Source: an uncultured Planctomycetaceae bacterium
GTDB taxonomy: Bacteria > Planctomycetota > Planctomycetia > Planctomycetales > Planctomycetaceae
Length of the DNA: 59,530 nt
Assembly (NCBI GenBank): GCA_937916515.1
Contig: CALFSX010000258.1
Span: 1 to 59,530, forward strand
Direction of reading: 5' to 3'
In this document: piece after piece, positions 5,148-9,217 of the stretch
Position numbering within the stretch: position 1 is the stretch's first letter
Layout of the letters: each line of letters starts with the position of its first letter
Made by a program: the position numbers and the translations under genes
Notes under the pieces: model-generated
The model's database searches: none
The model's input: the letters and a program-made list of their open reading frames with translations, nothing else
Told to the model about the DNA's origin: nothing

Positions 5148-5384
5148 ATGTTCAGGCAAGTGGGGCCAACGGATGAAATGGTTGCTGAGTTCCTGATTGA
5201 ACGCCGCCGGTCTGCCTACCATTTCTACCACTTTAAGCCCGATCTACCACTTGAAACCGCGAAAAAATGCGATAGTTTGCGTGGGTCTGCAAAAGCAGTT
5301 ACTGAACCGTTTCAAACGGCTGTAGACGAGTGTCAGCGAATGTGCTGGGAGGAGATGAAGTATTGCAGTGACAAGTCCGCATAA
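5148..5384 (+). pseudogene. Chimeric ORF ending in a DUF2256 tail
   Basis: The last 14 codons (CWEEMKYCSDKSA and stop) match the end of the intact DUF2256 protein at 9047-9187 ([11 protein letters not shown]). The preceding 65 codons do not resemble DUF2256 and carry none of its N-terminal CMACGRPF motif, so the ORF joins an unknown 5' part to a DUF2256 3' end and lacks the last Cys ligand. Immediately after it comes the 24-bp segment shared with 9194-9217. Whether the ORF is translated is unknown. The rest of 4976-5147 shows nothing. Confidence 0.45.
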
Positions 5385-5404
5385 GACTTTGGGCGAAAGC
5401 GACT

Positions 5405-5428
5405 GATTTATGAAGCTGCCTGTCACCA
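5405..5428 (+). repeat. 24-bp exact duplicate spanning a start codon (copy 1)
   Basis: Bases 5405-5428 are identical to 9194-9217. The segment holds GATTT, the ATG and codons for KLPVT, so two unrelated membrane-protein genes begin with the same sequence. In both places a DUF2256 3' end lies just upstream. Confidence 0.85.
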
Positions 5429-6126
5429 CCTCCGACAAACCGCCACAAGGCATCAATCGCCGCCGTCTGATTCTGCGTCTGGCTTGCCTGCCTGTGTTCA
5501 TCGCCCTGTTCATGTTCCTGCCAGCTGGCACCTGGGCATGGCCGAAAGGCTGGCTGTTCATCCTCATCCTGTTGGTCGTCATTTCAGCAGTATTCTTCAT
5601 TCTTCATCGTGTGAATCCCGAAGTCATCGTCGCCAGAAGTCGCTTCCACGAAGGAACGAAAGGCTGGGACAAGATTCTGCTCAGCCTTTACTTTCCAGCG
5701 ATGTTGGCTGTCATACTCGTGGCGGCTTTGGATGATGGCCGATTCCACTGGTTCCCGGTTTCGTGGTCGATTTGCATTGTCGGCTACGCTTTGCTGCTTG
5801 CCGGGATTGGAATCGTCACTTGGGCCGAAGCCGTGAACAAGTTCTTTGAAGTCACTGTGCGGATTCAAACGGATCGAGGGCATTCGGTGATCGACACCGG
5901 CCCCTATGCCATCGTTCGACATCCCGGTTATATCGGGGGGATTATCCATGCGATTGGCATGGCACTGTCGTTGGGTTCTTTGTGGGCATTGATTCCCGCG
6001 GGTGTTGCCTCAATCTTGTTGGTCGTGCGAACGCGGTGGGAGGACCAGACGTTGCAGGAAGAATTGAACGGGTACAAGGAGTACACTCAGAAAGTCCGGT
6101 ACAAGTTGATTCCGGGCGTTTGGTAA
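5410..6126 (+). CDS. Isoprenylcysteine/phospholipid methyltransferase-like membrane protein
   Basis: The 238-residue protein has about five membrane segments and the C-terminal signature GPYAIVRHPGYIGG (about residue 165), typical of the ICMT/PEMT superfamily of SAM-dependent integral-membrane methyltransferases. The conserved RW/E-x-Q motif near the end (RTRWEDQTLQEEL) also fits. In bacteria these enzymes methylate isoprenoid, lipid or small-molecule acceptors, and the substrate here cannot be told. The first codons (MKLPVT) come from the segment shared with the gene at 9199, so expression signals may have been acquired by recombination. No operon partner is visible. Confidence 0.85.
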   Translation: MKLPVTTSDKPPQGINRRRLILRLACLPVFIALFMFLPAGTWAWPKGWLFILILLVVISAVFFILHRVNPEVIVARSRFHEGTKGWDKILLSLYFPAMLAVILVAALDDGRFHWFPVSWSICIVGYALLLAGIGIVTWAEAVNKFFEVTVRIQTDRGHSVIDTGPYAIVRHPGYIGGIIHAIGMALSLGSLWALIPAGVASILLVVRTRWEDQTLQEELNGYKEYTQKVRYKLIPGVW

Positions 6127-6229
6127 CGACGAAAGAGCGTGCAGCCGAATTCGAGCATCGTTTGGCTGATGAGGATTAGCTACCGGCGACGTTGGATAAG
6201 TGCGAGAAAGCAATCGGAAAGAATCAAGG

Positions 6230-6610
6230 ATGAAAGACACGAAACGAAGATGGTTGATTGCAGTTCCCATTGTTATTTTGGTTGTCGTAATCGTCGGCCT
6301 TATCGTTCAATTTAGACCGGGCGTTGTTGTAACCATTGAAAATGCAGGGAACACACCACTCAGTTCGGTCGTAGTTCATGTTACTGGAGCTTCATACGAG
6401 TTAGGCGACATTGCTCCCGGTGATTCAGCGAACGTCAGGGTTAGACCAAAGAGTGATAGTAGTTTAGAAATTGAGTTCAAGGATGCTGACGGACAAGCTA
6501 AGCGATTAAATGCTGGCGGCTACTTTGAGTCGGGCTATCGTGGGACCATCCGAGTTTCGATCAAGGACGGTACAATCGATAAGTTCGAGGAAGATATCAA
6601 GCTGTGGTGA
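6230..6610 (+). CDS. Single-pass membrane protein with Ig-like outer domain, unknown
   Basis: From the ATG at 6230 the 126-residue protein starts with a basic stretch (MKDTKRRW), one hydrophobic helix (about residues 8-28) and an outer beta-rich domain with NAGNTPLSSVVVHVTG, a pattern like bacterial Ig-like or CARDB folds. An in-frame GTG at 6200 is a possible earlier start, but the region between is hydrophilic and looks untranslated. AAGGA overlaps the ATG. The next gene follows 34 bases later on the same strand, so the two may be cotranscribed. Function not recognised. Confidence 0.7.
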   Translation: MKDTKRRWLIAVPIVILVVVIVGLIVQFRPGVVVTIENAGNTPLSSVVVHVTGASYELGDIAPGDSANVRVRPKSDSSLEIEFKDADGQAKRLNAGGYFESGYRGTIRVSIKDGTIDKFEEDIKLW

Positions 6611-6644
6611 TCGATAGCCCAATCGTAGAAGTTTAGGAGTACAG

Positions 6645-7238
6645 ATGAAGGTCTGTTTTTCAATTATCGCAATGGTTCTTGTGGCAACCGCTACATCTGC
6701 TGACGAATCCACATTCGAATCTGTCCAAGAGGAGTTTCGGCAGAAGGCCGTTTCTCTTCTGACTGAAGAAGGCATCTCCGCACAGGAATTTCAAACAAAG
6801 ATTTCCGAGATTGCGAAGGCCACTTTCGGTTCCCATGCTGTTCTGGTGAAAAAGGAAACCGCTAATCGCTTCAGAAGATTGCCGGTGTTTCCAGAATCGA
6901 GTCTAGCCGAGTTCGCTGAACACAAGTCATTGGACCAGTTTCCAAGTCCCCCGACCGACGATGGACTGCTTTGGATCATATTCGGATGGGAACCGGAGAA
7001 ACTGGCGGACGTGGCGAAGAAAGCCATTCTCGCTCGCAAGCTCACCGCAGAACAATTCAGTCGCCGTGCGTTTGTTGCTGCCTGTTGCCCTGACAAGATT
7101 TATCGAATTGGTGAAGGAGAGTATCCCGATCTGGTTGTTGATTCACTTGGCGACCTTTTTGTAATCAAGGTCGAAATGACCGAGGCAGGTGTCTGCAAGC
7201 CGATCTCGGTCAGGTGGATGAAGAAGGATAAGTCGTGA
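6645..7238 (+). CDS. Secreted protein of unknown function
   Basis: This 197-residue protein has a clear signal peptide (MKVCFSIIAMVLVATATSA, cleavage after TSA at about residue 19) and a GGAG ribosome site before its ATG. The mature part is mostly alpha-helical in pattern, with a C-terminal segment resembling a small alpha/beta unit (YPDLVVDSLGDLFVIKVEM). I recognise no catalytic motif. It follows the membrane protein at 6230 closely and may work with it in the envelope. Confidence 0.72.
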   Translation: MKVCFSIIAMVLVATATSADESTFESVQEEFRQKAVSLLTEEGISAQEFQTKISEIAKATFGSHAVLVKKETANRFRRLPVFPESSLAEFAEHKSLDQFPSPPTDDGLLWIIFGWEPEKLADVAKKAILARKLTAEQFSRRAFVAACCPDKIYRIGEGEYPDLVVDSLGDLFVIKVEMTEAGVCKPISVRWMKKDKS

Positions 7239-8147: not shown

Positions 8148-8175
8148 ACGCCCAGTTAGCTGGGAAATGCCTAAT

Positions 8176-8209
8176 TTGTTACGAAAACCGAGCAATTGCG
8201 GTCGTAACA
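8176..8209. other. 9-bp inverted repeat between genes
   Basis: TTGTTACGA at 8176-8184 and TCGTAACAA at 8201-8209 are perfect complements 16 bases apart, just upstream of the DUF3050 gene. A short CCCAG/CTGGG hairpin precedes it at about 8153. There is no T-tract, so it may be an operator or a recombination scar rather than a terminator. Confidence 0.4.
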
Positions 8210-8262
8210 AGTGACAGGTGTTTGAATTGGCTGTAGTAATAGCTTGCTTAAGAGGCATACGA

Positions 8263-9075
8263 ATGAACCATATCAAAGAAATCGAAAATCGTTTAGCTCC
8301 GTTTAGATCCGCACTTCTTGAGCATCGAATCTACGGCGAAATCGACCGCATTGAGTCCCTTGGCGTATTCATGGAACACCATGTCTTTGCCGTGTGGGAT
8401 TTCATGTCACTACTCAAGGTGCTGCAGCGTCGGCTCTGTTGCGTTGATGTGCCTTGGTTGCCCCCCGAAGATTTAGAGGGTAGTCGTTTCATCAATGATA
8501 TCGTTCTTGCGGAAGAGTCTGATGAAGATGGACGAGGTGGATTCGCCAGTCACTTTGAACTTTATCACCGCTCAATGAATCAATGCGGGGCCAACACCGC
8601 TGCGATTGATGAATTCCTAAACGAGCTTCGCCGGGGTGTCGATGTTTCGACGGCATTGGCGTCAACAGCAGTGCCCGAAGCCGCTCGTCGATTTGTCCAA
8701 TCAACATTTCAAGTCATTGAGAACGGCGAACTGTGTGAAGTTGCATCAGCCTTTACGTTTGGCCGGGAAGATTTGCTGCCCGGCGTATTTCAACAGATCG
8801 TGGACAATTTGAACACGGAGTCTGGAGGCAGGCTGGAGCAATTCAAGTATTACCTCGAACGGCACATCGAATTGGATGGCGACGATCATGGCCCGATGGC
8901 GATCCGCCTGCTCAAATCACTCTGTGGAGACGACGAGGCACGTTGGGGAAAAGCGGAGAAAGCAGCAGTTGATTGTTTAATTGCCCGGAGAGAGCTTTGG
9001 GATGGAATCTATGAGACAATTAACAATAGCAATGTGGAAGTGAAAAATGGCCCACAAGAAATCCAACCTTCCTGA
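8263..9075 (+). CDS. DUF3050 family protein (haem-oxygenase-like fold)
   Basis: The 270-residue protein has DUF3050 hallmarks: [16 protein letters not shown] N-terminus, [20 protein letters not shown] near residue 45, [14 protein letters not shown], and the later SHFELY and [13 protein letters not shown]. The family is predicted to have an all-helical haem-oxygenase-like fold with His/Glu metal ligands; activity is not established. AGAGG lies nine bases before the ATG at 8263, which I chose over the upstream hydrophobic in-frame extension. Its last codons overlap the start of the DUF2256 gene by 29 bases, suggesting translational coupling. Confidence 0.88.
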
Positions 9076-9187
9076 GAAAACTTGCATGGCGTGCGGACGA
9101 CCATTCAAGTGGCGGAATAAATGGAAGAAGTGCTGGGAGCAGGTGAATTATTGCAGCGATAAATGCCGCAAAAGCCGTGCGGCATAG
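9047..9187 (+). CDS. DUF2256 small Cys-rich protein
   Basis: The 46-residue protein begins inside the end of the DUF3050 gene, in another frame. It has the DUF2256 pattern [10 protein letters not shown] at residue 13, a basic middle, and [12 protein letters not shown] ending in KSRAA, four to six cysteines arranged like a treble-clef or zinc-ribbon site. It is very basic, which fits RNA or DNA contact, but no function is established. A broken copy of its 3' end is at 5340-5384. Confidence 0.88.
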
Positions 9188-9193
9188 GTAACC

Positions 9194-9217
9194 GATTTAT
9201 GAAGCTGCCTGTCACCA
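9194..9217 (+). repeat. 24-bp exact duplicate spanning a start codon (copy 2)
   Basis: Identical to 5405-5428. It starts seven bases after the DUF2256 stop and supplies the start codon and codons 2-6 of the small membrane protein at 9199. Confidence 0.85.

Follow-up and report, generated by a model that had tools for sequence, protein, structure and literature searches.

A probable 5′-chimeric membrane methyltransferase gene in a planctomycete and the origin of its start

Chimeric genes formed by illegitimate recombination, i.e. joined with little or no homology, are of a known kind in bacteria. A gene at positions 5410-6126 of contig CALFSX010000258.1, from an uncultured Planctomycetaceae bacterium, may be added to them: it has an open frame for an ICMT/PEMT-like membrane methyltransferase of 238 amino acids, and we consider it probable that it is a 5′ chimera, the start of which was taken from a gene for a small two-helix protein. 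The window, as we call the whole stretch of DNA analysed, is this complete contig of 59,530 bases, belonging to a draft genome of 8.33 Mb in 343 contigs; the genes and segments of the cluster described below lie on its plus strand, and the labels G and L stand for comparison genomes and loci. As in bacterial chimeras of this type, both parents are recognisable, the join is in frame, the body is intact and one parental copy is kept elsewhere; unlike in such chimeras, only a leader and about six codons seem to have been taken, and the protein is nearly unchanged. The gene looks like an ordinary but well-resolved case, a one-off fusion joined with little homology. It would be a clear example of a moving bacterial gene acquiring a start, with recognisable parents, an intact recipient and a direction that can be read from relatives, and it reminds us that identical gene starts need not imply a common regulatory module.

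The families concerned are described ones. The methyltransferase resembles known ICMT/PEMT enzymes in passing both Pfam cut-offs (PF04140, 43.4 bits for a cut-off of 24; PF04191, 46 bits for 25), but it differs from them in its replaced N-terminal tail and in falling short of the equivalog cut-off of NF040696, protein-S-isoprenylcysteine O-methyltransferase (38.5 of 160 bits). Two copies of a DUF2256 gene (PF10013) accompany the system: the one at 9047-9187, of 46 amino acids, is intact and scores 71.8 bits against a curated cut-off of 25, while the upstream one (5342-5404) is unlike the family's small proteins in being a broken relic. The two-helix protein (9199-9396, 65 amino acids) misses the cut-off of DUF7670 (PF24709; 17.9 of 29 bits).

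The shared segment and the join

A segment of 24 bp, GATTTATGAAGCTGCCTGTCACCA, is identical at 5405-5428 and 9194-9217. At the first place it covers the end of a leader, the ATG and the codons for MKLPVT of the ICMT gene, and at the second the start of the two-helix gene. It closes an alignment of 88 columns (5342-5428 with 9130-9217, 70 matching) which begins inside DUF2256 and still matches at 46 of 64 columns when the final 24 are left out; beyond 5428 and 9217 the two sequences are unrelated. The initial annotation had reported the identical 24 bp with a DUF2256 3′ end ahead of each, the degenerate state of the upstream copy and the absence of any relationship between the two downstream genes, and had argued against a whole-gene duplication. 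The alignment bears this out: of the upstream copy just a 3′ part is left, interrupted by a one-nucleotide gap and an early stop, and it is followed by a gene for 238 amino acids that is unrelated to the one for 65. In a BLAST search of the whole genome this likeness, reaching back to 5342 and 9130, had E = 2.3e-14, and there were four other matches of 15-25 nucleotides (E from 0.9 to 5.7). The likeness of the relic to DUF2256 is one of DNA: the open reading frame (ORF) in which it lies (5139-5381) matched no Pfam family at E ≤ 0.1. For the segment immediately ahead of it (5163-5339), one weak match was found among 170 genomes besides its own, in G084 (E = 1.5e-4, 35%, with one internal stop).

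An even spread of mismatches rarely produces such an end (24 of 24 identical final columns in 0.13% of mismatch shuffles, an identical run of at least 24 anywhere in 2.7%); with the flanking likeness taken as given, chance is therefore an unlikely, though still conceivable, origin of the 24 bp themselves. In 100 shuffles a degenerate 17-mer representing the start had a mean of 0.00 matches, and no third place for the segment was found on either strand of the window with up to five mismatches allowed.

The DNA changes its type at about 5428, from DUF2256-two-helix before this point to ICMT after it; the frame is kept, the usual ICMT start is absent, and, as in a chimeric gene, the counterparts of the 5′ part and of the ICMT body in relatives are two different genes. 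The BLAST homology edges place the join at 5428-5430: homology to other ICMT genes begins at 5428 for L143, at 5430 for eight others (G023, G027, G028, G029, G037, L145, L146 and L149) and at 5435 for L147. The edges with G049 (5402) and G030 (5405) lie further upstream because the short leaders are alike.

The direction of the borrowing is suggested by the homologues of each gene. Thirteen other ICMT starts could be read (G049, G030, G023, G029, G028, G027, G037, G091, L145, L146, L147, L148 and L149); none is MKLPVT and nine are M(T/A)A, examples being MTAASDSD (G049), MTAASVSD (L145), MTADGV (L147), MSTNQPLNSD (L146) and MKSSTNTE (G091). Matches of 33-45% identity were excluded from these counts because their starts were not read or could not be aligned (G035, G026, G025, G065, G001, G163, G074 and G056), as were L143, with its start cut off, L144, which lies on the contig of G049, and L150 (27%). 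The five nearest homologues of the two-helix protein, by contrast with the ICMT genes, all start M[K/R]xxV: MKLFVDIFGS and, in a second copy, MRIVVAIVGS in G049, MKLIVAILGS in L145, MKLLVAVAGS in G061 and MKQLVAILSA in G046, to be compared with MKLPVTIIGS in the window. Together these two sets suggest that the two-helix gene is the original owner of the start and that ICMT borrowed it. Conservation is poor in the ICMT tail that precedes the first membrane helix, and exchanging a few residues there will therefore probably have done no harm; pairwise ratios of non-synonymous to synonymous substitution rates (dN/dS) between the window and five other genes are 0.22-0.24, a figure that includes the time before the fusion, and the frame has no internal stop.

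Gene order in relatives and the proposed route

In G049, which belongs to another genus than the window, the genes for ICMT, DUF2256, the two-helix protein, a protein of 126 amino acids, orf100 and DUF3050 follow each other on a single strand, and in L145, a Rubripirellula metagenome-assembled genome (MAG), the first three are likewise consecutive. The fusion thus joins cluster neighbours. A two-helix gene follows DUF2256 at 2 of the 30 places examined (out of 50), those of the window and G049, L145 being a third from another collection. The distance from the DUF2256 start to the two-helix start is 152 nucleotides in both the window and G049, and in G049 and L145 the stop codon of DUF2256 and the ATG of the two-helix gene overlap, as judged by eye. 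This overlap suggests that what moved is a translation start within an operon-like pair, the 'exchange of expression signals' initially proposed being at most a possibility.

The window has the order DUF2256, two-helix start fused to ICMT, and 126-amino-acid gene (6230-6610; in G049 this gene comes directly after the two-helix gene), and it looks as if ICMT had replaced a two-helix body. Homology with G049 runs to 6140, i.e. 14 nucleotides beyond the ICMT stop and into the spacer that separates ICMT from DUF2256 in G049 and L145; the remainder of this spacer (6127-6140) is as in G049 with one gap, and less exactly as in L145. Within the chimera reading, we see about an even chance for the following replacement. 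The starting state would have been a resident DUF2256, two-helix and 126-amino-acid order as in G049, in which the two-helix body was replaced by an ICMT piece that began near codon 7 and ended some 14 nucleotides past the stop. Joining would have occurred in frame near 5428 with little or no homology, giving DUF2256, then the leader and MKLPVT fused to ICMT, then the 126-amino-acid gene, and the ready ATG region would let the chimeric ICMT be translated. The front DUF2256 would then have decayed, which could be tolerated because an intact DUF2256-two-helix pair remains behind the DUF3050 gene (8263-9075).

Several observations weigh against this account. The relic is about equally distant from the intact copy of its own genome and from that of G049 (46 and 44 of 64 columns matching, and 42 for L145), while the 24 bp equal their own counterpart and agree with G049 and L145 at only 15 and 16 of 24 positions. 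At sites which separate the own copy from G049 and L145, the upstream part sides with the own copy at 5 and with the other two at 7, two further sites agreeing with neither, whereas the 24 bp side with the own copy at all 6 (Fisher 0.038); the test is weak, with 20 informative sites, 18 of which entered it. Owing to this difference in affinity, the account may require a further step, for instance conversion. Either selection preserved the start and the dead DUF2256 was free to drift, or the 24 bp are a later copy taken from the intact pair. The more distant two-helix homologues (G162, G164, G130, G110 and G057), which stood outside the alignment of starts, do not have the MKLxV start. L143, the nearest ICMT gene (90% nucleotide identity), is truncated 13 nucleotides ahead of the match, so that its start is not seen; its frame at that point reads TKHTSTSDK. 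The spacer 6127-6230 yielded nothing recognisable as the 3′ end of a two-helix gene, and no DUF2256 or two-helix remnant there exceeded shuffled sequences (32, 62 and 51 of 300 being as good). Finally, the leader of the window's two-helix gene, AACCGATTTATGA, resembles that of the G049 ICMT gene, AACCGATTCATGA, in 12 of 13 letters by eye. An exchange in the opposite direction was considered for this likeness, which the chimera does not explain and which may be due to chance.

Alternative explanations

Possible, though doubtful, is a tandem duplication, which would also yield a 5′ chimera. A unit from about codon 7 of ICMT to codon 6 of the two-helix gene would have been duplicated head to tail, the junction being the fusion. 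Subsequent losses would have removed ICMT and most of DUF2256 on the upstream side, and the DUF2256-two-helix pair behind ICMT would have been lost or moved. The order in G049 and L145 speaks for this, since one duplication there gives a junction with DUF2256 ahead of it, and so does the spacer that follows ICMT in the window, which is of the ICMT-DUF2256 kind. But no second ICMT match was found, either in the genome (E ≤ 1e-20) or, within the window, ahead of 5342 (E ≤ 1e-6), and the 126-amino-acid gene behind ICMT calls for further deletions or moves. Nor would one expect ICMT to be far less diverged from G049 than its partners: fourfold-degenerate sites are identical at 76 of 104 for ICMT, 4 of 10 for DUF2256, 12 of 24 for the two-helix gene, 14 of 36 for the 126-amino-acid gene and 42 of 83 for DUF3050. 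This suggests that ICMT arrived, or was exchanged, later than the others, which speaks for the chimera account, a slower change of the gene being another possibility. An ICMT tree of 14 rows left the positions of G000, L143, G049 and L145 unsettled, and in a comparison of six genes, 31 nucleotide changes are private to that of the window.

An assembly artefact at the 24-bp repeat is improbable. Short-word assemblers can miscross a repeat of this length, and the draft is in 343 pieces; such a miscrossing, however, presupposes that the 24 bp precede the ICMT body in any case. The borrowed start would then persist, and only the relic could have been misplaced.

More improbable still is the reusable module raised by the initial annotation, in which DUF2256, leader and start codons would form a mobile expression unit set before different genes. 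That a DUF2256-leader-start piece was joined to a different gene stands, with ICMT as the recipient, and the same 24 bp do precede two different genes here. However, at least three such genes would be expected of a module, and the further copies it predicted were sought in the genome and relatives and none was found. A degenerate pattern of 23 nucleotides occurred in 1 of 392 phylum genomes, namely its own, at the two known places only, and nowhere in genome_contigs and viral_contigs, scans that may not cover the records of the window itself or of its closest kin. The segment is absent behind 29 other DUF2256 genes (the 30 of 50 places minus its own, in 28 other genomes or at other places), the best candidates having 9-13 mismatches and 300 random stretches 8-14. 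The 139 bases around the join had matches in 12 of the 170 genomes (at most five candidates scored per genome), and among these 170 the relic and segment occurred together nowhere outside their own; the other matches were to the ICMT body, with part of the leader in G049 and G030, or to the DUF2256 piece. Among phages, the relic and segment together had no match at E ≤ 0.1. As for a shared ancestral gene starting MKLPVT, we regard it as practically dismissed: only the start is common, and alignments of each gene's homologues, which are full-length, unrelated to the other gene and differently started, reject common ancestry.

Mobility of the cluster and neighbouring features

The ICMT gene is sparsely distributed. 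At E ≤ 1e-20 it was found in 17 of 170 genomes of the family, including its own, but the seven further genomes of the genus to which the window belongs gave no match. Eight named loci have relatives of it, six with planctomycete names, one called only 'bacterium' and one from Chloroflexota (27% identity), while 48 plasmid records have relatives that are all below 60% identity. Other joins are seen in this cluster in further genomes. In L143, from a MAG labelled Phycisphaerae, the ICMT stop region runs at 700-760 straight into the last codons of the 126-amino-acid gene; by eye, the two sides have CGAC in common at the seam. Between G017, of the window's genus, and G049, of a different one, a block of 2,156 bp has 93.4% identity (G017:C194, L128:5553-7706; G049:C24, L082:9419-11574), ending within the 126-amino-acid gene on one side and within a 400-amino-acid ORF on the other; to judge from its sequence, it is a recent transfer of a small piece. 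The cluster thus seems to undergo rearrangement and to pass between planctomycetes, and the 5′-chimeric ICMT may have arisen in it through a single step or a few. That the ICMT-DUF2256-two-helix-126-amino-acid-DUF3050 cluster is a natural generator of 5′-chimeric genes, with repeated within-gene joins and pieces passing between genera, is an unlikely extension; if true, some joins would set a new gene downstream of an existing start of translation.

Some further features were noted around the cluster. G049 has two short C-terminal TspO-like pieces near it (L082:7957-8051 and L082:8747-8814), the window gene being whole (9918-10319). DUF1990 paralogues lie on the minus strand at 2708-3286 and 14014-14604 (115 nucleotides at 71% identity). 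The 84 nucleotides at 3996-4079 are 88% identical to 11032-11115 and constitute a partial copy of a zinc-ribbon-like gene (10910-11179), pieces of which are also found in G019:C249. To the right of the accessory genes is a tyrosine recombinase gene (PF00589, 19416-20930, minus strand), which nothing links to the joins, and an imperfect repeat array with a spacing of mostly multiples of 15 nucleotides occupies 18388-18838 in the ORF 18274-18936. Dispersed repeats of about 50-134 nucleotides occur in both orientations at 35579-35677, 36832-36965, 37113-37164 and 50427-50562; three of the four end in C(T/C)AACAAGGGC, an end that we take, putatively, to be somewhat integron attC-like. A bacterial small signal recognition particle RNA (Rfam RF00169) is located at 40226-40322 on the minus strand.

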